Source: Jimgerdemannia flammicorona (taxonomy: Eukaryota; Mucoromycota; Endogonomycetes; Endogonales; Endogonaceae). From it: a stretch of DNA of 25,125 nucleotides. The notes below the pieces were generated by a model. That model was not told where the DNA came from, ran no database searches, and worked only from the letters and a program-made list of their open reading frames with translations. The position numbers and the translations under genes were made by a program. Positions 2,133 through 23,103 of the stretch are shown piece after piece. Positions within the stretch are counted from its first letter, which is position 1, and each line of letters starts with the position of its first letter. The DNA lies in contig RBNI01001013.1 of NCBI GenBank assembly GCA_003990745.1, positions 1 to 25,125 on the forward strand, read 5' to 3'.

Positions 2133-3596
2133 ATGCTGTACCTGACCAATGATGCGGAGCTGCTCCCCTTCTTCCTGCCATTGGGCATCATCGGCTTCTA
2201 TCGGTACCTCTGGTATGCAATCAAGCTCATTGCCTGGATCTTGTACCGCCCGATCCTTCCCAAAGAGTCGCCAACGTACACGGCCGAACACGATGTGACC
2301 ATCATCGTCCCAACGATCGACGCTGGTGAAGAATTCAAAATCGCAGCGCGCAGCTGGATGGCCAACAACCCGAAGGAGATCCTGATCATCACAGAGGAGA
2401 AAATGCTCGGCCCGCTTCAGAACTTTGCAAACGAAGTGAACCCCGACAAGATTCGTGTGCTGACTGTCTCACGTGCCAACAAGCGGCTGCAGATGACGGC
2501 AGGGATCAACGTGACAACGACGGAGATCATTGTCTTCGCCGACGACGACGCCATCTGGAAGCCGACCTTTTTGACCTACGTCCTGGCGTGTTTTGAGGAC
2601 CTCAAGATGGGAGGCGTGGGGACGTGCCAAACGGTGCATGCCGTTAATCCTTCTGGTTACCAGACGGTGTGGGAGGTACTTGCCGGTTTCCGTCTTACGA
2701 TCCGCAACATCGAGGTGGCGGCGTCTACACACATCGACGGCGGTGTGTGCTGCATCTCCGGACGGACGGCGGCGTACCGCACGCTGATCCTCCAAGACCC
2801 CGCGTTTCAGTATAGTTTCACGAACGACCTCTGGTTGGGCAAGTATCCGCTGAATTCTGGGGACGACAAGTTTCTGACGAGGTGGATGGTGTCGCATGGG
2901 TGGAACATGTACATCCAGGTGTGTCCCGAAGCGGAGATATCCTCGACGTTCAAGAACAACTGGCGGTTCATCAAGCAGGTACTTCGGTGGACGCGTAATA
3001 CGTGGCGATCGGACTTCCGGTCACTGTTCACGGAAAGGCACATTTGGACGCGGCACCCCTATGTGGCCTTCACAATGGTGGACAAGTTTTTCAACTCGCT
3101 TACTCTGCTCTCGGGACCTGTCATGGTCTCCATCCTCGCCGCCCAGAAATATCAGCACCCGCTTTGGAACACCCTCGTATCCTACGTGTGCTGGCTACTG
3201 CTTACTCGCGCCCTCAAGCTATCCCCCCACCTTTGGCGCCGCCCGCAGGACATCATCTGGATCCCGGCATGGCTTATTTTTGGCTACTATTTCGCCATTA
3301 TGAAGCTGTACGCCCTGTTTACCCTCCACGAGGTCGGATGGGGTACCCGTGCCGGCGTCGGCACCACCCTCGCCGCAGATATTGCTAAAGAGGACGCTAT
3401 GGGCGAGAAGGTAGCGCAGGGACAGCAGGAGGTCAAGATCGAGCTGGAGCAGCTGAACAACGACCAACAGGTCAACCGCGTCGGTCCCAACGGCAGCACC
3501 TACTACGCGCAGGACGGATACCCTAAATACATAGGCCCAGAGATCGATATGGGGATACCGGTAGGAAGGTTTAAGAGCAGGGGTATTAGTAAATGA
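2133..3596 (+). CDS. Family 2 membrane glycosyltransferase (Cps1/GT2, hyaluronan-synthase-like)
   Basis: Intronless 487-residue protein. Predicted to be an integral membrane polysaccharide synthase that polymerises a UDP-sugar and feeds the chain across the plasma membrane. An N-terminal hydrophobic segment (about residues 10-40) is followed by a cytosolic GT-A domain. That domain has VTIIVPTIDAGEE (55-67), the nucleotide/metal-binding FADDDA motif (135-140), the acceptor-site GDDK (243-246) and the product-binding QVLRW (282-286). About three hydrophobic segments follow (roughly 320-335, 345-360, 375-398), then a WGTR motif (403-406) like that at the end of hyaluronan and chitin synthase pores. 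Tail residues about 415-450 are charged. The start is supported by the CAACCATGC context and the membrane segment directly after it. Known relatives are the Cryptococcus Cps1 type and the GT2 proteins needed for hyphal growth in plant-pathogenic ascomycetes. The polymer made here cannot be told from sequence. Confidence 0.93.
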   Translation: MLYLTNDAELLPFFLPLGIIGFYRYLWYAIKLIAWILYRPILPKESPTYTAEHDVTIIVPTIDAGEEFKIAARSWMANNPKEILIITEEKMLGPLQNFANEVNPDKIRVLTVSRANKRLQMTAGINVTTTEIIVFADDDAIWKPTFLTYVLACFEDLKMGGVGTCQTVHAVNPSGYQTVWEVLAGFRLTIRNIEVAASTHIDGGVCCISGRTAAYRTLILQDPAFQYSFTNDLWLGKYPLNSGDDKFLTRWMVSHGWNMYIQVCPEAEISSTFKNNWRFIKQVLRWTRNTWRSDFRSLFTERHIWTRHPYVAFTMVDKFFNSLTLLSGPVMVSILAAQKYQHPLWNTLVSYVCWLLLTRALKLSPHLWRRPQDIIWIPAWLIFGYYFAIMKLYALFTLHEVGWGTRAGVGTTLAADIAKEDAMGEKVAQGQQEVKIELEQLNNDQQVNRVGPNGSTYYAQDGYPKYIGPEIDMGIPVGRFKSRGISK

Positions 3597-5277: not shown

Positions 5278-5351
5278 TAGTGCTCTGCAAATCTGACCCG
5301 ATTAACCTGAAACCCAACCCATAAAACAGCCAATCCAGAATTAGACGTCAC

Positions 5352-5549
5352 CTATCTTTAACCCAACTCAGAATTATATATCACTCATCTTTAACTCAAC
5401 CTGGAATTATATGTTACCCATCTTTAACCCAACCTGGAATTGTATATTACCCATCTTTAACCCAACCCAGAAAGATATATTATCCATCTTTAACCCAACC
5501 TGGAATTAAACATAACTCATCTTTAACCTAACCTGGAAATATATGTCAC
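5352..5549. repeat. Left subterminal array of the hAT element, six 33-bp units
   Basis: Six consecutive units of 33 bp on the pattern CATCTTTAACCCAACCTGG followed by AATTATATGTTAC. The right end carries the same unit in reverse complement. Arrays of short subterminal repeats in hAT elements are known transposase-binding sites; that role here is inferred. A looser CTGAACCCAACC-type repeat continues to about 5660. Confidence 0.85.
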
Positions 5550-5725
5550 CTGATCTGTTATTTACCCTTAACCCAAACCTAAATCCAACCCCTGAACCCA
5601 ACCCTGAACTCAATCTCTGAACCTGACTCTGAATCTGACCCTCTGAACTCTGCCCTGAAAAAATAATTCAGAAAATATTTGGATAATATTCAGAGTAATT
5701 GAAAGTGAAAAATATCTGAAGACTA

Positions 5726-8354: not shown

Positions 8355-8779
8355 ATTCAGTATGTTCTGCATAAGCCCCAATTGAGCAAGGTTTGCAATG
8401 ACATTTGAGCAAGGTTTGTGGTGCATTTGAGTAAGATTTGCAGTGAGATTTAAGCAAGATTTGCAAGCAAGATTTGCACATAAGATTAAAGTGAGATTTG
8501 CATAAGCCAGGCTTTGCAAGCCTTGTGCTTGCAAGCCTGGACAAGCTCAGTCACAAGCTGATATGACATATATATAAGCTGATATCATATGATATTAGCT
8601 ATTGGCTGAGCTTGCAAGTATAAGGCTTACAAAGCCTGGCTTATGCAAATCTCACTTACAAATCTTGCTCAAATCTTACTACAAATCTCACTGCAAATCT
8701 TACTCAAACATACTACAAACCTCACTCAAATGTCATTGCAAACCTCACTCAATCAGAGCTTATGTAGAACCTACTGAAT
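8355..8779. repeat. Large palindrome (foldback structure) 1
   Basis: The left arm from ATTCAGTATGTTCTGCATAAG (8355) is the imperfect reverse complement of the right arm ending at 8779 (CTTATGTAGAACCTACTGAAT). Within the arms, GGTTTGCAATGACATTTGAG pairs with CTCAAATGTCATTGCAAACC exactly. Arms are about 200 bp, with centre near 8567. No open frame with a recognisable domain crosses it. Confidence 0.85.
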
Positions 8780-8990: not shown

Positions 8991-9317
8991 TTGTGTTCTA
9001 CTCCTCTTACATTCCACTTCTCTTGTACAACTCTCATGTATTTCTCCACCTCCCTCACCCTCATTCCTCAGATTGCAAACAACATACAATTTAGAAATGG
9101 GTTTTGAAAGAGATTTTGAAGAGATTCTGAAAGAGATTTCGAAGAGATTCAGAAAGAGCTTCTGAAAGAGATTTCGGAGAGATTCTGAAAGAGCTTCTGA
9201 AAGATGTTATAGCTTTTGAACATTTAAGATATTGAAAGCTTACTTTTGCCTCTTGTTCTTTTCACCTCATTCTTTGTTTCACCTCATCTTTTGCTTCACC
9301 TCACTTAATTTACTACT

Positions 9318-10642
9318 ATGTTGAGAAAACATAGATATGACCACCCGGCCAATAAGTATTTACTTGGCTCCCCCTAAGCTCAACGTGCTTCAGCTTGCTG
9401 TCCCAAAGCTTGGCACCCTAAAGATGCCCAGCTTGCCAACACCCAGCCTGCTGAGCTTGCTGACACCCAGCCTGCTAAGCTTGCCAACACCCAGCCTGCC
9501 AAGCTTGCCAACACCCAGCCTGCCAAGCTTGCTGACACCCAGGTTGCCGAGCTCGCTGACTCTCAGCTTACTGACCCTCAGCTCTCTGATCTCCAGCTTG
9601 ACCACTAGCTCACCACCAGTCTGCAAGTACAAGGTCCCTCACCAGATCCCAATAATGCAACTCAAAAAAGTTAGTTTTTTTTTTTTTTCTTTTTAAATCA
9701 ATGTCTGAATTTTTTTCCTAATAACATTTGAAATATACATATTCTCCAGCTTCTAAGCCTGGGCCAGAGTGTAAATCTTACTACAATTGCTATTTTTGCC
9801 ATCAAGTTTGCCTAAGTACCACCTAGAAGTATTACCAAACCAATTTCCCAGATGCCCCAAACCTCATGGAGAAAAGGCCTTATAAATCGGACAATAGGTA
9901 TGCTTTTGCTGTGGCCAACAAATGTATTAAGAAAGTACATAATGACCAACTGAGGCAAGAAGTCATAAGAGTGATAGAAAACTATGCAAAAATCGTGGAA
10001 TATTCATCATACCACACCAGCTTCAAGGTGAATACCAAAGCATAGAATAAGCAAGGTTGTCTAGATAGAATTGACATCATGGATGAACACGAAAAACTGC
10101 TGGCCATATTTGAACGAGTACCAGTGAAGAATGACAAAATACTTTATATGCGACTGATGGATGACAGGCTTGTACATTTTGTTGAGGGGGGTGGTGGTGG
10201 AGGAGATGGAGAGGTGAGAGAGGTCAGTGCTAGTAGAGGAGTCGGTGCCAGTAGAGAGGTTGGTGGAGAGGTCAGCATGGGGAAGGTCAGCACAGGGGAG
10301 GTCAGCATAGAGGAGATCAGCATGGAGGAATATGAGGAGGTCAGTGCAGGGGAGGTTGGCATGGAAGAACATAGGGAGGTCAGCATGGAAGAATATGAGG
10401 AGGTTGGCACAGAGAAGGTCGGTGTGGAGAAACATGGGGAGGTTGGTACAGGAGAGGTCAGAATGGAGGAATACAGGGAGGTTGGCACGGAGGACAAAAT
10501 AGAGGTTAGCATAGAGGAGGTCAGCACAGAGGAGGATATGGAGGAGGAGGATATAGAGAAAAGCAGTTCAGAATATATAGAGGAAGATAGTTCAGAATAT
10601 GAGAAGGAGGAGGATCAGTTGGTTTATAGTGATGAAGAGTAA
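9318..10642 (+). pseudogene. Second gene of the hAT element, two exons, function unknown
   Basis: Exon 1 runs 9318-9669 and exon 2 runs 9750-10642, joined by GTTAGT..CTCCAG (intron 9670-9749). The frame after splicing is the same as the open frame from 10079 to the stop at 10640-10642, supporting the model. The protein starts MLRKHRYDHPANKYLLGSP, then carries about five 8-residue repeats (TQPAKLAN). Exon 2 starts with a Cys cluster (C-x5-C-x2-C-x3-C in ECKSYYNCYFCHQVC), then a charged helical region (about 9890-10180), a Gly run and a long acidic tail rich in EV, EE and SEY. Four in-frame stops (TAA near 9377, TAG near 9605, 9817 and 10045) show decay. I recognise no family. It may be an accessory protein of the transposon or captured host sequence. 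Confidence 0.55.
9428..9556 (+). repeat. 24-bp coding minisatellite in exon 1 of the second hAT gene
   Basis: About five units on ACACCCAGCCTGCCAAGCTT plus GCCA; 24 bp keeps the reading frame and gives TQPAKLAN-like repeats. Variation is mainly CTGA/CCAA and transitions. Confidence 0.8.
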
Positions 10643-10827: not shown

Positions 10828-11115
10828 AGGTTAAATATGGGTCAGGGTCAGGTCACATATATTTCTTGAGTCAGATCATGTATATTTTTTGGGTCAGGTC
10901 ACCTATATTTCTCGGGTCAGATCACATATATTTCTTGGATTGAGTTAAAGATGGGTTATATATAATTCCAGGTTGGGTTAAAGATGGGTGATATACATTT
11001 CTAGGTCAGGTTAAAGATGGGTAATATATAATTCTGGGTCAGGTTAAAGATGGGTGATATATTATTCTGAGTCGGGTTAAAGATGGGTGACATATAATTC
11101 CAGGTTGGGTTAAAT
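10828..11115. repeat. Right subterminal array of the hAT element, inverted 33-bp units
   Basis: Repeated GGTTAAAGATGGGT(A/G)ATAT units with 33-bp period in the better preserved part (about 10935-11115), and more diverged GGGTCAGGTCACATATAT units before it. They are the reverse complement of the left array. Confidence 0.82.
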
Positions 11116-11149
11116 ATGTACATGGGTCAGCTCAGGTTGTGATGCACTA

Positions 11150-11157
11150 ATCACAGA
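11150..11157. repeat. hAT 8-bp target-site duplication, right
   Basis: ATCACAGA. It keeps the C that became T in the left copy, so it likely shows the original target. Confidence 0.85.
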
Positions 11158-11780: not shown

Positions 11781-12617
11781 TTTTTTTTTTTTTTTTCAGG
11801 ATTACTTATTTTAATTATAATGCAACTATCCAGGAAAGGCACAGCCACAGAGTCGAATGTAACTGAAATGGCGTTTATCGCTATTCATACAACCAAATTA
11901 AATCTTCTCCCTCTCTTCTAACACATTCCTTACCAATTTCTCTAATATACTCTCTTCTCTCTCCCTCCCCTTCCTAGTCAAACCTGTAAATAACTCCTCA
12001 ACGTGCTTAAGTGTGTACTTGCCCACCATGTCTACCTCAATGTTGGCACTGTCTCCCACTTGCTTTTTTGCCTATATAACGTGATTCTGCATATGAGCAA
12101 TCATCAAGATGGTAAACCAGCACTCGCGATCGTTCACATCACAGACCATCAATGATGTACCATTGATGGCAATAAATCCTTTGGGGATAATATAGGGCAG
12201 CAGGCTGGAGTCTAGGAGGGTGAATCGGAGCCAGAGAGAGTTTTCTTTAGGGGTGATAGAGGTAATGGTTGCTGGAGAATCAATGTGGCCCTACACTATG
12301 TGCTCGCCAAAACGTTGGCCAGCTACCATTGCCCATTTGAGGTTGACCTTGTCACCAACTTTGAGGTCACCCAGATTCGTTTTTCGCAGTGTCTCAGGTG
12401 CAATACTGAGCTTAAACCAATCCTTGTTGAACTTGGTAACAGTTAAACAAGTGCCATTCACAGTAATGCTATCTCCAATGTGGCAGTTGGTCAAGACAAT
12501 AGAGAAGTCGCCCACAGTAACGCTCCAGCCATTCCCACCAGAGGAGGAGGTATCTTGTAGAATGATGGACACAACTGTGTCCATATGCTCAATGATGCTA
12601 GTGAACATAGTAATTTG
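11781..12617 (-). pseudogene. RIB5: Processed (retroposed) pseudogene of riboflavin synthase
   Basis: Reading minus, a 9-base leader precedes ATG at 12608. An intronless frame then runs to TAA at 11898-11900 (236 codons), followed by a 3' untranslated region of about 100 bases and 16 A (T-run at 11781-11796). Riboflavin synthase converts two 6,7-dimethyl-8-ribityllumazine molecules into riboflavin and a pyrimidine. Its two lumazine-binding repeats are visible: MFTSIIEHMDTVV, GDSITVNGTCLTV and APETLRKTNLGDLKVG in the first; GHIDSPATI, FIAINGTSLMV and QVGDSANIEVDMVGKY in the second. Two in-frame TAG codons (12291-12293 and 12072-12074) stand where Gln is expected (EHIV-Q-GHID), consistent with CAG-to-TAG mutation. 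The copy is flanked by 14-bp duplications, so it is a retrocopy. The active parent gene must lie elsewhere. Confidence 0.92.
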
Positions 12618-12631
12618 ACCATATGTCACAC
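12618..12631. repeat. Target-site duplication, right, of the riboflavin synthase retrocopy
   Basis: ACCATATGTCACAC, nine bases upstream of the retrocopy ATG. Confidence 0.9.
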
Positions 12632-15600: not shown

Positions 15601-16733
15601 ACTCACTGATAATATTTACAGATAATTTTGATATACTTTAAGAATATAAGCTCTTAGTAAAAAGAAAGAAGTATTGCTTCTTCAAAAAGAAAATTAAATA
15701 TCTAGAACACATTGTCTTAGTAAATAGCATTGATATTGACTCCAAAAAGACTGAAGCAATCTGCAACTAATCTATTCTGAAGACTCTTAAGTCTCTATAA
15801 GAATTTAATTAATTAACTAAATATTACTGAAAATTTATTTAAGAATTCTCAGTAATTATCTCTCTACTCATAAGCCTTTATAAGAAAGAAACCAATATTA
15901 AAAAAATAGATAGAAGAATGTACTACAGTAATATATAAATACTCTTAAGAGAATACTAACTAATATGTCAATCTTGATCAGCCTAGATCTTATAGAACTC
16001 TTCACTATTACTACAGATATCTCAAATATCACTATTAGAACTATATTGATCTAGTATGAATATCTAGTTATATACCTGTCCCAGAAGCTAAATAAGTATA
16101 AAAAGAACTATATAATATAAGATAAAGAACTTCTTACTATTATCTGATCTCTGTAATTATAAAGATATTTTCTTTTCAGTAAAAAATTTACCTTATAGAT
16201 AGACTATCAAGCTTTGTAATATATTTAGATATAACTAATTCTTATAGAAAAACAAGTATGATAGATGCAGATCCTTGCATCTTTCAATATTAAAATCAAG
16301 CATATTACCAGTACTAAGAATAAAGTAACTGATATACTTTTCTTATAATAATTAGTAACATCACTATTAGTCTATTTGAGAAAGTTAAAAAAGAGTATAC
16401 CAAGAATACTAATATATATAAAATTATTAAAAAAATTCTCAAAGAAAGAAGTAATATTATGAAGAAGATATATAAGAATATTTTTATTCAAAATAGATAT
16501 ATATATCTTGATAATATAAGAATTTGAGTTTCTGATACTCTTATCTATTTATAAATTCTATAAGAATTATATAATATACTTACAGCTAGTTATATGAGAT
16601 TTGATAAGATATACTAACATATTATTTGAGATTTCTACTGGTCTAAGATAATAGCTAATATTAAAAACTATATTATATTTTATGATATTTACCAATGATA
16701 TAAGCCTAGAAATCAAGCTTTAGCTAGAATACT
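12632..16733 (+). mobile_element. Decayed Ty3/gypsy chromovirus, 5' part (gag to mid-integrase)
   Basis: Plus-strand remnant of an LTR retrotransposon polyprotein, riddled with stops. In order I see a zinc-knuckle remnant (YYKKRGHMSCKY, near 13610-13655), an aspartic protease active site VLIDSRASKCYLDKE (about 14508-14552; DSG changed to DSR), then reverse transcriptase. RT landmarks are LPYGILILFIYKKD, IDY-VLNKISIKN, RFRYYKFCIISFRLTN and VYLDNIIIYS (15559-15588, where YLDD has become YLDN). Decayed RNase H and the integrase zinc-binding region (NYIIFYDIYQ-YKPRNQA) run to 16733. Gly-to-Arg, Asp-to-Asn, Trp-to-stop and Gln-to-stop changes are what G-to-A and C-to-T mutation gives. The element continues at 23504 after two insertions. 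Its start is left of 12632, probably beyond the retrocopy. Confidence 0.87.
16729..16733. repeat. Target-site duplication of the dUTPase element, left
   Basis: ATACT, identical to 23099-23103. Confidence 0.9.
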
Positions 16734-18225
16734 TGTAAGAGGGTTGCTTTTTGATAACTGTTATATAGTTCTGAAAGGGTTTTCTGGAAGTTCTGGATAT
16801 TCTGGAAGACTGTTTTCTTATGGTCAAGATCAATTTCATATGGAGTACGTCCTCTACGCTTATTGATTTCAAGATCAGGTTGACGTCTCAACCAAAGTCC
16901 TTTTTCAGACTAGTTCTGGATGTTCAGGATTTTCTGTATTTCAGGAAGTTCAAGAAACCAAGACCAGCTTAGTTGAATTAGCATATCACTACAGACAATA
17001 CCCAATTAGGAATTTTCATAATGGGGTTAGGAGTGGGACCTAATGGGGAGTGGATTTACTTAAGAGTGGTTTGTGGGTTATTAAATAGATTTATTTGCTA
17101 TTCATGATATTGCTATACTAGGAGTAGTTGTGTGAAGGAATATTGTAGAGAAGTGCTCAGGAGTTGTGTTTGGATTGTTCAGGTCTGAGATTCTAAGGTC
17201 TGAGGGAGGGAGTATTTATACTAGTGAGGGACTATCTGGACTATGCTAGATATGAATGTAGCACTAAGTGCCTTGCTGAGTCGGAATGCAGTCACATAGT
17301 ACAAGTGTGATCTGACATGTCAAGAGATCGTCTGACTACTGAGTCAGTTCACAGTCACATCATATAAGGCTAATCTAACTATACTATGACTGCTAAGCTA
17401 TTTATAGGTTTAGATGCTGTCTGGGTAGTCTTCGATAACATTACTATTGATGACATCATTGCTGGCAAAGTCTGAGCAGTTTTCTGACTTCTGACATCAT
17501 CAGTTTCAAGGTGTCGTCACTTCTATCTCTTGCAAGATTAAGGCTGTCCCTGGTGGCGGTGGTTATATAAGGATAACAGGTCTTGGTTCTCTTTTTTTTT
17601 TGGTCTGCTGGTGCATTTGTGAGGACTGGCCATTCTTGTCTAGGGTGAGGGCTCCCAATGTCGCGGCTGGGAGTTCAAACCTCTCAGAAATGATATTTTC
17701 TATAATTCAAGGCAATTTCTAGTAGTAATATCTGTCACATGGATGACTTAAGATTGGTTTCAATGATGTCGGCTTTCTTGAGTTCAGATGAAGCATCCAT
17801 CACTCTCCAATGGAGGTGATACAGATAGAGCATACAGAGTTGTTCAAATACATTTTGCTTCTGCTAAGTAATAAGGTCTTGTATAATCATAGTGTATCTT
17901 GGTCTCAAGTTGATAAGTATAGTTTGTGAACCTTTTGATAGATAAGATAGGGTTCTTTTTGTCTCGATTTGAGTTTGGTACTTCCAGTTTCCTTTTGTAA
18001 TAGTACAGTATACCAAACTAGTTATAGCAGTTTAGAGTCAGTCTTATAGTTGTAGTACTTCTTCTAGTATTCTTGTATCTTGGTGGTGGGTTCTCGTACT
18101 TACTGGCATATTTTGTATAACCAGATGATCTCTTCAGTAACTTGTTTTGTAGTCTCACATGTGGTTTCCAAATTAGTTCTGAGGATACCATGCAATTTTG
18201 GTGGCTTGGAGGTTGTACACTTACA
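16734..18225 (-). repeat. 3' LTR of the dUTPase element (minus-strand orientation)
   Basis: Starts TGTAAGAGGG and ends CACTTACA on the plus strand, giving a 6-bp terminal inverted repeat (TGTAAG/CTTACA). It aligns along its length with 21619-23098; differences are mostly transitions, plus a 12-bp indel near 17320 and a 1-bp indel near 16757. A TATA box for minus-strand transcription, TATAAATA, lies at 17213-17220. A TGAGTCA word (Gcn4/AP-1-like) occurs at 17340-17346. Confidence 0.93.
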
Positions 18226-18226
18226 A

Positions 18227-18239
18227 CTCTCTCCTTCTT
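18227..18239 (-). promoter_or_regulatory. Polypurine tract
   Basis: AAGAAGGAGAGAG on the minus strand, one base before the 3' LTR TGTAAG. Position and composition fit the plus-strand primer of an LTR element. Confidence 0.8.
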
Positions 18240-19182
18240 AGCTTTCGACGTCCTCGTCAGGGCCTTCTAATTTGTTCTGGTGTTGTTGTACCATTTGGAT
18301 GGTTCTTGTGGCTGTATTTGTTGAAGATTTGTTCAACTTTGTATTCTTCTTGGTCATTAATAATGACAGATACAGGTGGTTCTGTAGTTTGGTTCAGAAA
18401 TGTGTCTCGGATCTTCTGGAGTAGTGGTCTGACATGGCTGTCAACTTTGGAAAAGTCTTCTTCAGAGTTCTTGGGTTCTCCTTTGGATGGATGGATGGAG
18501 ATAGTAAAAAGGGAGCATTTCTTGGCCAATTTCTTGAGTTGTAGCTTGTTGATATGGGTGATCTTTGGTCCAGAGTCACTAGAGTTGAGTGGGTCCTTTT
18601 TACCTTACAGCTTGAAGTTGTGGTATCCTTTCTTGATGGTCAGAGAATGGTTTACCCAATCAATCATGAGGTTCTCTTGTTTTAACCATGTGGTTCCAAG
18701 AATGATCTCATTGTCAGGAAGTAGTACAATTTGGAGGGTAACATATACTCGATAGTCATCAATTCAGAAGGGTAGGTTGTGGACTTCTTTGCTAATGACA
18801 TGTGAGGTTCTATCAGCTATGGTAACTGCTTGAGTTTGTTGTACTGGAGAGGTGAAGACCTTGAGTCTGTTGGCTGTTTCTTCATTGATAAAGTTGCCTG
18901 AGGCACCACTGTCTATCATAATCTTGACAGGTGCTCGGTTGACAAAAGCTTGGAGTGTAAGCAGTTTGTCAGATCCAATGGTAGTGATTTCAGTTGTAGG
19001 AGCTTTCCTTCTGTTGGTTCTTCTTTGAGCCAGTTCATTGACACAAGAGAAGCAATCATCAATCATTCAGAAAGAGTACATTCTAATGCCATGGGGACAT
19101 CGGCCACTTGGTATATATCCATCTTCGATTTTCTTATAGAATTGTTCTTTTTTGTTCATGTTAGGTTGGGCTGGGGCTTTAT

Positions 19183-19598
19183 TTGATAAGCCAAATCCTT
19201 TGGATCCTTGGATAGTAGGTAGTAGTTCAGGGACTTCCTTGACTGTCAGGTTTGACTCAATTCTTTCAAATAGGATCTGGGCAATGCAGAAGCCTATAGG
19301 GATCTTGAAGGGTGTCCAACTGTGGTTTCGGATAAGGACAATGATTTTGCCTGTATAATCTTCGTCAATGACTCCTCCTTCTACTGAGAGTCCTTTCAAT
19401 ACTAGGCTACTGCAACAGCATATTCTTCCAACATGTCCTTCAGGAATTTGGATACTGATTCCTATAAAGACTTGCTTGACTTCTTGGTTGGAAACTGTAG
19501 CTTCTTCAGCTGTATACAGGTCATATCCAGCTGCTTTTTGACTTCCTTTGGTTGGGGCCTTAGCAGTTTGTCTTAACTTGACAAAGTCTAGTGTTCTG
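19183..19598 (-). other. dUTPase domain embedded between nucleocapsid and protease
   Basis: About 138 residues, the usual length of a trimeric dUTPase subunit, with all five motifs in order. Motif 1 is AGYDLYTAEE (19534-19501), motif 2 GRICCCSSLVLKG, motif 3 EGGVIDEDYTGKI with the catalytic Asp, motif 4 IPIGFCIAQILFER and motif 5 GSKGFGLSN (near 19206-19183). The enzyme hydrolyses dUTP to dUMP and pyrophosphate, limiting uracil in DNA. This stretch has no stop. Motif 2 lacks the usual Arg (PRSSL reads CCSSL), and motif 5 lacks the usual Arg before the glycines, so activity of this copy is doubtful. Confidence 0.88.
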
Positions 19599-21603
19599 GT
19601 GGTCAGATTGTTGAGGTGGTGCAGAGTAGTAACAGTTGCTCATGTTGCTGTTTGGGGTTTTCGATTAGGGCAGGCACTGGCTATGTATCCTGTCTTTCGG
19701 CAATAGAAGCATGCTCTGCTTCTTCAAAGTTCATTTCTTTTGCCTTCAGTGAGTTTCTTGAAGGTACTCAGCTGGGTGGGTTCATGATTTCTGGGTGTCC
19801 ATGAGGTGGATATAGAGGGAGCTCAGGATGCTTCATACTTGGGTTCTTCTTTCTTGGTCCAAGTCTTTTCCTTGTTATTGAATTATCTTCAGGGTAGAAT
19901 TGGTCCAGCTGTTAAGATTCGCTTGACCATAGTCTTGATTCTTGCCAGGCACCATTGTTGGTGATCGCAATCAACTGGGCAGTCTTGTTCTCAGATTTTT
20001 CTAGTAAGCCATTCAGGCAGGGCATCGAATAAATGGTCTGCTCTTGTACCATTTTGTATTTCATCATTGGCAATATATCCTAGGCCAACAGTGTTCAGGA
20101 GTGACTCAAGTTTTGTACAGAAGGTTTCAAATTCTTCTTTGCTATGTATATTGAATTTGAGATTGCAGAGTTTTACTTGGGATTCAGTGATCATGGTTTC
20201 ACTGCAGTATTGAGCAATCATGAGTTGTTTGAGTCCAGGGGCTGCAGGATGGGCTCTATATCCTAGGGCATTGTTTGCTACATTCTGAGCAACTACTGCA
20301 GGTCAGGTGTCCCATGTGAGGGGTTTTTCAGGAAGGGTTCACTACCATTCCTCAGCAGGTCCTTGGAAGAATGTAACAACTTGGCAGACATAGGCTGTAG
20401 TGGTAGCAAATAGTTGTTCCAGAGTGTGGTCTTGATTGTTTGTCAGAAGGTAGTCAGCAACTCACTCATTGGTCCATTGATTGGCTTCGAAGTTGGTGTC
20501 AACTATACTAATAAAGCTTTGGACTTCTTGTGCAGTACCATTGAAGGTAGATAGGCTCAGATTTTTGGTAGGTCGGGTCTGTTCAGCTAAGGCAGTAATG
20601 GTTGCTGCCATTATCACTACCTGGGCTGTGAGGTCTAGAATCTCTTGGTTCACCATGTTGTTTACTAGAGGCAGTTGGACTGCTGGTAATGGTGTTACTG
20701 GTACTACTTGAGGTACTGGTGCAGAGTGTGAGGGTGTTCTTTGGGTCTATGTAAGTTGCTGGAGTAATAGTTGTGGGTCTGGAGTAAGGGCTTGATAGAT
20801 AGCTGTTTGTTGCTGTATAGGTGTATTCTGTTCTGATGGAGGTGCATCTCCTTTGGTGGTGTATCTGGGATCGAATTCACTGAGATACTCCTCCTTCTCT
20901 TCAGTTTGGTCTCTGTGTAATTGGGTTTACTCAGTGTCAAAGTAGACAGAATCAGTTATATATCTGATTTCAGATAGACTTAATTCAAAGTCAAGTTCTG
21001 ATTCAGTATTGGTTTCAGATTCAGGTAGAGCAGTAGCAGGGCCTGCTTCTGGTTTGGGGTCAGGTAGTTGATGAAGGGTTTCTCTTGCTTCTTCTTTAAG
21101 AATATGGTGGGTCTTACTGTTCTGGAATTGGTAGTATAATGCAGTCTTGGTCCTGGTATGGTGAAAGTTGGTAAAGTTGAGCCACTTGGCTACAGAGGCT
21201 TGGGCTTCATGAGGAACTAAGGCTAGAAAGACTGCTGATGGTTGTCCTAGGTCACTTGGATTTGTGGAGCTGACAAAACTCTTATTGAGAAGAGTAAAGA
21301 AGGCTTCTATAAGACCTTCTTCATCTTGACTTGTTGGGTGTAGTGCAAGGAGTTCAGTAAATAGGGTTTCGCCTATTTGCTGATTTAATCAGAGTACTTC
21401 TTTCTTTGAGTGAAGTTTGTCCCACTTGTTGCAGGTGTGGAGGTCAAATTGTCCTTGTATATCAGGTTCAATTCTCTCCAGATTGTCAGATAGTTCAGGA
21501 TAAATTCCAGTTCAGAGGTTGGACTTTATACCAACTTGTAGGAATTCGCAGAAGAGTTTGTAGTGGGGTGAGGAAGCGTCTTGAAGTGGAATTGGATTGT
21601 AAA

Positions 21604-21615
21604 CTGCTGCTACCA
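21604..21615 (-). promoter_or_regulatory. Candidate primer binding site
   Basis: On the minus strand, three bases after the LTR, TGGTAGCAGCAG begins with TGG, the complement of a tRNA CCA end. The next bases resemble those used with initiator methionine tRNA primers (TGGTAGC..). The exact tRNA needs comparison with this genome's tRNA set. Confidence 0.65.
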
Positions 21616-21618
21616 AGT

Positions 21619-23098
21619 TGTAAGAGGGTTGCTTTTTAGGTAACCATTACATAGTTCTGGAAGGGTTTTCTGGAAGTTCTGGATATTCTGGAAGACCGTT
21701 TTCTTATGATCAAGATCAATTTCATATGAAGTATGTCCTCTATGCTTATTGATTTCAAGATTGAGTTGATGTCTCAACCAAAGTCCTTTTTCGGACTAGT
21801 TCTGGATGTTTAGAATTTTCCATATTTCAGGAAGTTCAAAAAACTAAGACTAGCTTAGTTGAATTAGCATATCGCTGCAGACAATACCCAATTAGGAATT
21901 TTCGTGATGGGGTTAGGAGTGGGACCTAATGGGGAGTGGATTTACTTAAGAGTGGTTTGTGGGTTATTAAATAGATTTATTTGCTATTCATGATATTACT
22001 ATACTAGAAGTAGTTGTGTGAAGGAATATTGTGGGGAAGTGCTCAGGAGTTGTGTTCAGATTATTCAGATCTGAGATTCTAAGGTCTGGGGGAGGGGGTA
22101 TTTATACTAGTGAGGGGCTATCTGGACTATGCTAGATATGGATATAGCACTAAGTGCCTTGCTGAGTCAGAATGCAGTCATGTAGTATAAGTGTGATCTG
22201 ACATCTGACTGCTGAGTCAGTTCACAGTCATGTTGTACAAGGCTAATCTAACTATACTATGACTGCTAAGCTATTTATAGGTTTAGATGCTGTCTGGGTA
22301 GTCTTCGATGACATTACTATTGATGATATCATTGCTGGCAAAGTCTGAGCAGTTTTCTGACTTCTGACATCATCAGTTTTAAGGTGTCATCACTTCTATC
22401 TCTTATAAGATTAAGGCTGTCCCTGGTGGTAGTAGTTGTATAAGGATAACAGGTCTTGGTTCTCTTTTTTTTTTGGTCTGCTGGCACATTTGTAAGGACT
22501 GGCCATTCTCGTCTAGAGTGAGAGCTCCCAATGTCGCAGCTGGGAGTTCGAACCTCTCGGAAATGATATTTTCTATAATCCAAGGCAATTTCTAGTAGTA
22601 ATATCTATCATGTGGATGACTTGAGATTGGTTTCAACAATGTTGGCTTTCTTGAGTTCAGATGAAGCATCTGTCACTCTCCAATAGAGGTGATACAGATA
22701 GAGTAAACAAAGTTGTTCAAATGTATTTTGCTTCTGCTAAGTAATGAGGTCTTGTATAATCATGGTGTATCTTGGTCTTAAGTTGATAAGTACAGTTCAT
22801 GAACCTTTTGGTAGATAAGATAGGGTTCTTCTTGTCTTGATTTGAGTTTGGTACTTCCGGTTTCCTTTTGTAATAGTATAGTACACCAAACTAGTTATAG
22901 TGGTTCAGAGTTAGTCTTATAGTTATAGTACTTCTTCTAGTATTCTTGTATCTTAGTGGTGGGTTCTCGTACTTGCTGACATATTTCATGTAACCAGATG
23001 ATCTCTTCAGTAACTTGTTTTGTAGTCTCACATGTGGTTTCCAAATTAGTTCTGAGGATGCCATGTGATTTTGGTGGCTTGGAGGTTGTGCACTTATA
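21619..23098 (-). repeat. 5' LTR of the dUTPase element (minus-strand orientation)
   Basis: Matches the other LTR end to end and ends CTTATA where the partner has CTTACA. The TATAAATA box lies at 22099-22106 (minus). Open frames seen inside (for example 22329-22583) are not conserved in the partner LTR and are not called genes. Confidence 0.93.
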
Positions 23099-23103
23099 AT
23101 ACT
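23099..23103. repeat. Target-site duplication of the dUTPase element, right
   Basis: ATACT, directly after the LTR end. It overlaps the TACTAT that flanks the MITE-like element. Confidence 0.9.

Follow-up and report, generated by a model that had tools for sequence, protein, structure and literature searches.

Results

Here we describe a minus-strand LTR element that spans positions 16734–23098 of a 25,125-nt stretch of DNA from Jimgerdemannia flammicorona (contig RBNI01001013.1), referred to below as the window. The element carries a Gag-like frame, a dUTPase and a protease and is without pol; all of its parts named below lie on the minus strand. Like other LTR retrotransposons it has LTRs whose tips match; the 5′ LTR at 21619–23098 (1480 nt) and the 3′ LTR at 16734–18225 (1492 nt) are enclosed by a perfect 5-bp target site duplication (TSD), ATACT, located at 23099–23103 on the left and at 16729–16733 on the right in element sense, which bears out the LTRs and the duplication reported in an earlier note on this DNA. 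The U3 of the 3′ LTR (17460–18225) is of the type found in a pol-less lineage, and a different U3 is present in the pol-containing copies L002, L014, L021 and L024. A primer-binding-site candidate (21598–21615), recognized by its sequence, begins TGGTAGCAGCAG, and its TGG sits 3 nt inside the LTR edge; an ARAGORN search of the window returned no tRNA gene, and hence none there to match this candidate.

A single frame, interrupted by 18 in-frame stops in the window copy, runs from 21619 to 18231. Its upstream part (20657–21511) is open except for scattered stops, and a Pfam search with pieces of it gave no match. In-frame ATGs that are kept in at least 20 of 25 copies are missing from the interval between the leader stop (21514) and position 20656. 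The first conserved in-frame ATG, at 20656, marks the beginning of the Gag core (19640–20656), a name given from position and general look, as three pieces of the Gag region had no match in Pfam. This core includes a CCHC-type zinc knuckle (19670–19711), the His position of which is altered in the window copy and which falls below the cut-off (PF00098, E=0.12). The dUTPase domain (19184–19564) is matched by PF00692 (E=7.3e-30, residues 26–152 of the translation of 19070–19639, minus strand), and the region matches dUTPases in the PDB at 9e-24; judged by the conserved dUTPase motifs, the motif-2 arginine is absent in the window copy and present in L061. A protease is recognized by PF13975 (E=2.7e-7) within 18767–19066, with an aspartic protease core containing DSGA at 18779–18952 and a C-terminal part at 18608–18763. 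The single frame with gag, zinc knuckle, dUTPase and protease proposed in the earlier note, which had made its main point depend on a dUTPase profile match, is thus confirmed by profiles for the dUTPase and the protease; for the knuckle and Gag such a match was not obtained.

The gap of about 380 nt between the protease and the LTR is too short for RT, RNase H or integrase, in agreement with the earlier reading that there is no room for them. It consists of the protease–RT linker with a stub of the RT start (18397–18604; L061 is 90.5 % nt identical over 18393–19591 and runs on into RT), the N-terminal half of a chromodomain (18297–18401; 85.7 % nt identity to L063 over 105 nt) and a pre-PPT stretch with the polypurine tract (18226–18296, the tract itself at 18226–18242; 89.5 % nt identity to L064 in an 86-nt stretch that extends into the LTR). 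At deletion joint 1 (18387–18402), which leads from the RT start to the integrase C-terminus, a microhomology of 10 nt, TATTCCCGAA, is the point where RT start and chromodomain are fused in frame; in pol-containing copies this sequence stands on both sides of the deleted part. Deletion joint 2 lies at the upstream edge of the pre-PPT stretch.

We use N for the pol-less lineage that has the deletion joint and Y for the pol-containing copies with the other U3. Twenty-six N copies and five pol-containing copies were read, and since 30 of these were picked as the best window matches, the likeness of the Y copies to the window copy is partly a matter of choice. Among the 40 matches listed, 36 span the whole internal region and four end at the joint. 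All 26 fetched N copies lack pol and have joint 1 at an identical position (L030 has a substitution beside it), while it is absent from all five pol-containing copies. The joint was found at no fewer than 273 places in the 134.8-Mb genome (none with the reversed control), so that the gag-dUTPase-protease arrangement without pol is shared by many copies. The TSDs were readable in 19 of the N copies and not in the other seven; 13 of the 19 have a perfect 5-bp TSD, all of them different, three have one mismatch and three have none, among the latter L009, for which the outer edge was extrapolated. Independent insertions, each with its own TSD, which the earlier note had proposed to look for, are therefore present, and the differing TSDs rule out segmental duplication as the source of the copies. 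LTR divergence amounts to 4.3–8.1 % (18 copies), making the measured copies old, and in-frame stops number 10–19 in each of 25 N copies and 18–21 in three pol-containing copies, so that no active pair is seen among them.

Pol-containing relatives, the existence of which had also been raised in the earlier note, differ by 7–9 % and, according to a marker count, have the intact site at about 602 places. The order dUTPase-PR-RT is seen in L061, in which the succession of PR and RT of the parent type was read, and RT follows in L002 (only the first 147 of 231 residues), L014, L021 and L024. The L063 protein contains a chromodomain (PF00385, E=1.3e-16), the domain found at the integrase C-terminus of Ty3-type chromoviruses, the probable lineage of the parent. 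Both pol-containing 3′ ends that were read, C3307 and C444 minus, are Y-type. A direct derivation of N from Y copies was considered and dropped, as L061, a second pol-containing subtype, carries most N alleles; the RVT_1 loci L031–L060 belong to other families. The long LTR of the partner carries, unexpectedly, a reading frame of about 400 aa, for which an AlphaFold model made without an alignment was uninformative (mean pLDDT 30).

Discussion

We consider it probable that N is a non-autonomous LTR family with one origin and two internal deletions, which spread by retrotransposition with the enzymes of its relatives. N would have arisen once from a chromodomain-bearing element of the order gag-dUTPase-PR-RT-(RNase H)-IN, through one deletion from RT to integrase, with the joint at TATTCCCGAA, and another at the chromodomain end, which would have left Gag-dUTPase-PR in frame plus a short tail. 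Multiplication by retrotransposition would have followed, with N RNA entering particles together with the RNA of pol-containing relatives, whose RT and integrase would copy and integrate it; the window copy would then have been made when RT switched templates between N and partner RNAs. The Gag-dUTPase-PR of N itself may contribute to the particles, of which we are less sure, and N may package itself, a possibility raised in the earlier note.

Two features of the sequence, the scarcity of indels that break the frame and a bias towards third codon positions, favour the view that N's own proteins may act. Among the 26 copies, one indel event falls in 3224 coding columns versus nine in 913 columns of tail and U3, under a third of that length (Fisher p=1e-5), and the coding alignment is free of indels in 25 of them. 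Transversions within N that are absent from Y, the window copy and L061 are distributed 33:28:62 over the codon positions, a count to which inheritance from pol-containing parents may have contributed; singletons give 23:23:50 and the dUTPase 4:2:16. These figures speak against N being a pure passenger, for which the partner supplies all proteins including Gag and in which the frame is kept by youth relative to the deletion or is refreshed by recombination. This alternative nevertheless has a substantial, if lesser, claim: recombination with pol-containing elements is observed, there is no conserved ATG upstream of 20656, and N transversions occurring in at least two copies show only a weak third-position bias (10:5:12). 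The selection signal itself may be inherited from pol-containing parents via repeated recombination. The high share of third-position changes among those separating N from Y (46 of 56) was dropped as proof of selection in the pol-less state, since most of these changes predate the deletion. We suggest only tentatively a two-part system, in which the pol-less element would give Gag, dUTPase and protease, the pol partner would bring the LTR-borne frame, their RNAs would share particles and recombine, and both protein sets would be under selection, as in a segmented element.

The window copy is a mosaic, with upstream alleles of the pol-containing type, downstream alleles of the deletion-lineage type and a breakpoint interval at 18557–18602. 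Fifty of 54 informative sites are Y-type in one run and the last three are N-type (chance 1.6e-4); the longest Y run in the other 25 N copies is four, and the Y copies, left out in turn, give 50 Y-type and 0–5 N-type sites. Both window LTRs carry an N-type U3 and are Y-type at four of five R-U5 sites, indicating that the mosaic was present already at insertion, although decay could mimic the C-to-T change that underlies two of these four sites, and some N copies share the Y letter at two of them. The mosaic fits template switching between co-packaged RNAs and strengthens the earlier idea that a partner's pol is borrowed, which our data support.

It is improbable that the window copy is instead an early pol-less branch with ancestral alleles and no mosaic. 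Its two LTRs and body mutually agree, and its distance to other N copies exceeds that within N in tail and U3 (8.96 % versus 7.26 %) as well as in the body (8.8 % versus 7.4 %), as such a branch would have it; however, the switch at the breakpoint is clean, and private transversions are in excess in the body (16, others 1–7) and not in tail and U3 (1, others 0–3). Reverse transitions do not separate the two parts (14 and 4 in the window copy, 4–18 and 0–5 in others). In addition, at 16 of 22 sites the allele of L061 is N-type, from which it follows that most of the differences concerned predate the deletion, and its possession of most N alleles is a further argument that the window copy is more than a basal branch.

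That similar repeats were misassembled to give the mosaic and the hybrid-LTR copies is very unlikely: the assembly has 7754 contigs and many repeats, and two hybrid-LTR loci, L004 and the C444 minus element, were recognized by their LTRs, not by a TSD, but a simple misjoin would not yield the perfect TSD of the window copy together with an N-type U3 and mostly Y-type R-U5 in both of its LTRs. Finally, although internal deletions are common in LTR elements, neither one event confined to a single insertion nor a series of separate events can be credited here, as the shared joint and the differing TSDs refute both for the copies read.

An element of the kind proposed here is known from plants, in the pol-less Athila families and TR-GAG, and N represents this kind in a fungus, with the difference that dUTPase and protease are retained, neither of which is known to be kept in pol-less Athila. 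N is the reverse of BARE2, the non-autonomous partner of BARE1 in barley, which derives from the autonomous family by recombination and, without Gag, keeps pol; N has kept Gag and lost pol. The position of the dUTPase before the protease is that of betaretroviruses. For Athila in Arabidopsis, the account in PMC2410132 gives whole pol-less families, for which movement with the enzymes of pol-containing families is inferred and in some of which the gag (and env) frames are intact, and reports recombination between both as well as purifying selection; a Hordeum case is alluded to there. Like these, N has a gag frame without pol in all 26 fetched copies and a pol-containing partner in the same genome, but Athila has a plant host, keeps Env and shows purifying selection, whereas N is fungal and shows a codon-position bias only. 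TR-GAG elements of plants are described in PMC8704663 as LTRs with a single Gag ORF and no pol; one such element was observed to move in a mutant of Arabidopsis, where a full-length element resembling it exists. N differs in also encoding dUTPase and protease and in its fungal host.

A dUTPase has been found in the polyprotein of fungal chromodomain Ty3 elements, in Postia placenta and, as cited there, in Phanerochaete and Tuber (PMC2864245), in line with the statement in the earlier note that some fungal Ty3-type elements have one. In these elements, as far as PMC2864245 describes them, the dUTPase sits at either terminus of Pol or else between PR and RT, and Pol is present, whereas in N it precedes the protease and pol is absent. 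The bdelloid rotifer LTR retrotransposons Juno, Vesta and TelKA share a dUTPase with N, in their case between PR and RT, but according to PMC5408684 have pol and no chromodomain. Subfamilies of the fungal LTR family crapaud in Podospora have the LTR in common save for the part of U3 that precedes the TATA box, and seven of 150 copies have two different LTRs (PMC10787394); N and Y similarly differ in U3 and hybrid-LTR loci were seen, but crapaud has Gag and Pol, and neither a dUTPase nor a pol-less family is part of its description in PMC10787394.

The retention of a dUTPase without RT raises the question whether this enzyme acts for the particle and not for the RNA that encodes it, and the LTR-borne frame of the partner raises a second one. 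N is a well-marked pol-less coding family in an early-diverging fungus, and since its pol-containing relatives, the microhomology at the deletion and a mosaic copy are found in one genome, sequence counts can be used there to test co-packaging and to ask what a non-autonomous element gains from having a Gag, dUTPase and protease of its own.

Structure of the element in the window

The element lies on the minus strand, with the 5' LTR at 23098-21619, an internal part at 21618-18226, the 3' LTR at 18225-16734 and a perfect target site duplication (TSD), ATACT, at both outer ends. The internal part is a single frame throughout, with 18 in-frame stops, in which Pfam finds a dUTPase (E=7.3e-30) and an aspartic protease (PR; E=2.7e-7). 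The zinc knuckle is visible, its Pfam score (0.12) being under the cut-off, and three pieces of the Gag region given to Pfam had no match. The window dUTPase matches 63 distinct solved sequences in the PDB, and among the 60 shown most are named dUTPases and one is a POL polyprotein; Pfam and solved structures thus bear out the dUTPase which the earlier note had recognized in a pol-less element.

A frame of about 285 codons at 20657-21511 (minus strand), ahead of the Gag core, has no conserved in-frame ATG, and a leader stop upstream of it is common to 29/29 copies tabulated, pol-containing ones among them. Its translation may start through splicing, at a non-ATG codon or in another frame.

Elsewhere in the window, the 2133-3593 protein matches a Jimgerdemannia flammicorona protein, a putative polysaccharide synthase, with 100% identity over 99%, the next match being from Endogone (79%); the host assignment is based on this one protein. 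The lumazine-binding domain at 12294-12629 (minus strand; Pfam E=9e-21) is probably a riboflavin synthase exon. Arrays of a 33-bp minisatellite at 5317-5550 and 10944-11151, with 5.4 kb between them, have opposite orientation and are ~83% complementary, and two nested inverted repeats at 8355-8779 (arms of 97 and 71 nt, 83-87% complementary) could form a hairpin or represent a small inverted element.

A family of independent insertions

In the assembly that contains the window (134.8 Mb, 7754 contigs), the internal part used as a DNA query gave 2626 first-look candidates; of the best 40, 36 cover the whole query and four end at query 3223-3227. We fetched 30 loci (L001-L030), chosen as the closest window matches rather than as a random draw: 26, the window copy counted in, carry the deletion (lineage N) and four do not (L002, L014, L021 and L024; the pol-containing relatives Y, with another U3). 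The joint has an identical position in all 26 N copies, with one adjacent substitution in L030; in the four Y copies and the later-fetched L061, a second pol-containing subtype, the sequence continues into reverse transcriptase (RT) with no joint (5/5). A 34-letter joint pattern with at most three mismatches occurs at 273 places in the genome (136 + 137; reversed control 0), which is a lower bound because of the mismatch limit in decaying copies.

TSDs were read by eye from printed flanks, and both outer flanks were legible in 19 of the 26 N copies. Thirteen of these have a perfect 5-bp repeat, each of a different sequence (L001, L006, L010, L011, L012, L015, L016, L017, L020, L023, L025, L028 and L030), three have one mismatch (L005, L007 and L026), and three have no match (L009, where the outer edge was extrapolated, L018 and L019). 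Eighteen copies have two long LTRs; these LTRs diverge by 4.3-8.1% (median 5.8%), and nearly all differences are transitions, with 27 transversions in 26657 sites. The mobile pol-less unit proposed in the earlier note is thus supported by its further copies and by their separate insertions: N is a family of independent insertions and not one deleted copy.

Origin of the deletion

Relatives with pol, which the earlier note had imagined as partners, are present. L061 (contig C2241) matches window 18393-19591 at 90.5% identity, its dUTPase-PR region then running into a normal RT (RVT_1 E=1.1e-34). L063 (contig C3307) represents the C-terminal end of integrase in a copy with pol and has a chromodomain (PF00385, E=1.3e-16). 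The first half of this chromodomain matches the window tail (85.7% over 105 nt), and L064, directly downstream of L063, matches the last window stretch ahead of the LTR (89.5% over 86 nt); as the tail is split between these two matches, N was made by two deletions. At joint 1, where the RT start is fused to the chromodomain, both sides, as in L061 and L063, have TATTCCCGAA in common, and the frame is unbroken across the joint; TATTCCCGAA is exact in 2/73 loci. The undeleted integrase-side sequence is present at 602 places in the genome (reversed control 0), and the dUTPase and RT profiles each have at least 150 scored places.

In 26/30 of the RT loci L031-L060, tblastn matches the window dUTPase at 32-55% identity, which places these loci in other families.

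Selection and decay

Across 26 copies, the coding part has a single indel event (L022) in 3224 columns and the tail plus U3 has nine in 913; R-U5, which contains short repeats, has 18 in 749 columns (24 copies). Transversions of N absent from Y, the window copy and L061 show a third-position excess (33:28:62 by codon position), which is strongest in the dUTPase (4:2:16). Taken together, the sequence comparisons lend moderate support to the idea that Gag-dUTPase-PR was formerly useful to N. The codon-position bias may also have been inherited from pol-containing parents through recombination; transversions common to at least two N copies have a weak third-position bias (10:5:12).

The stops in N copies are largely decay: in 223/317, C-to-T/G-to-A alone separates the stop from the commonest codon (24 copies), and a stop is the commonest codon at 6/1073 positions. 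Singleton C-to-T/G-to-A changes have no third-position excess (133:104:82), which fits decay after insertion. They are the largest class of private changes (319/526 singletons), and CpG is retained in 1020/2526 cells at CpG sites; the CpG loss and C-to-T excess hint that decay in this early-diverging fungus is linked to methylation.

The nearest precedent, in the available part of PMC2410132, is the pol-less Athila families, in which gag and env are under selection and recombination is present. The available parts of other reports describe a TR-GAG element that transposed in Arabidopsis (PMC8704663), fungal Ty3-type elements with dUTPase (PMC2864245) and, in a survey of fungal LTR elements, incomplete sets of domains, taken there to indicate non-autonomy or decay (PMC3248453). 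A literature search of titles and abstract openings, covering few subscription journals, found no pol-less fungal gag-dUTPase-PR family.

A reading frame in the LTR of pol-containing copies

The LTR of Y copies is longer (about 2.06 kb in contig C444), and its U3 holds a sense reading frame of ~400 aa ending just ahead of a TATA-like box (L014:114-821, plus strand; L062; C444:10883-12943; C3307:543-1250 and 9005-9712). In C3307 it flanks one dUTPase on both sides, as expected for an LTR location. A 236-residue part has at least 150 scored places, from 3372 first-look candidates; 84 of the best 150, counted by eye, are stop-free over the tested part, and among the matches listed the frame is often 412 aa and up to 453 aa long. 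Pieces of the frame gave nothing above cut-off in Pfam, and the 236-residue part had no match in the PDB; a word-based search through 5.8 billion proteins gave it a single relative (62% identical). N retains about the final 16 codons (by eye). By its U3 position the frame recalls MMTV sag and lentiviral nef; titles and abstract openings yielded no fungal LTR-U3 frame of this sort.

Two loci, L004 and C444:2789-10811 (minus), have unlike U3 types in their two LTRs, in reciprocal combination. They look like genomic recombination or assembly joins and were kept out of the evidence; they resemble copies of crapaud in Podospora, for which the available part of PMC10787394 gives 7/150 with two different LTRs and proposes recombination.

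The window copy is a mosaic

N (≥18/25) and Y (4/4) differ at 56 informative sites, 54 of them scorable in the window copy, which has the N allele at 21547, 50 consecutive Y alleles from 21410 to 18602, and N alleles at 18557, 18527 and 18491. By chance, all of the final three sites would belong to the four N ones with a probability of 1.6e-4. In each of the remaining 25 N copies, Y alleles number 1-11, in runs of at most four, and each Y copy, when omitted in its turn, scores 50 Y-type sites and 0-5 N-type. The Y copies were retrieved through resemblance to the window, so that the body similarity is partly selected; the sharp switch is not. Private transversions number 16 in the body of the window copy (1-7 in other N copies) and one in its tail plus U3 (0-3); counts of reverse transitions (14 and 4, against 4-18 and 0-5) do not tell the two parts apart. 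Pol-containing L061 has N-type alleles at 16/22 sites, and most N/Y differences are therefore older than the deletion.

Both window LTRs have an N-type U3 and are Y-type at four of five R-U5 sites, although two of these four are C-to-T and at two the Y letter also occurs in 5-6/42 N LTRs. As both LTRs share this combination, the mosaic most likely formed before or at insertion and not via later gene conversion of one part. Mosaics of this sort usually come from template switching between two co-packaged RNAs, as in retroviral biology. The window copy would accordingly have arisen if RT had switched templates between an N RNA and a pol-containing RNA packaged together.
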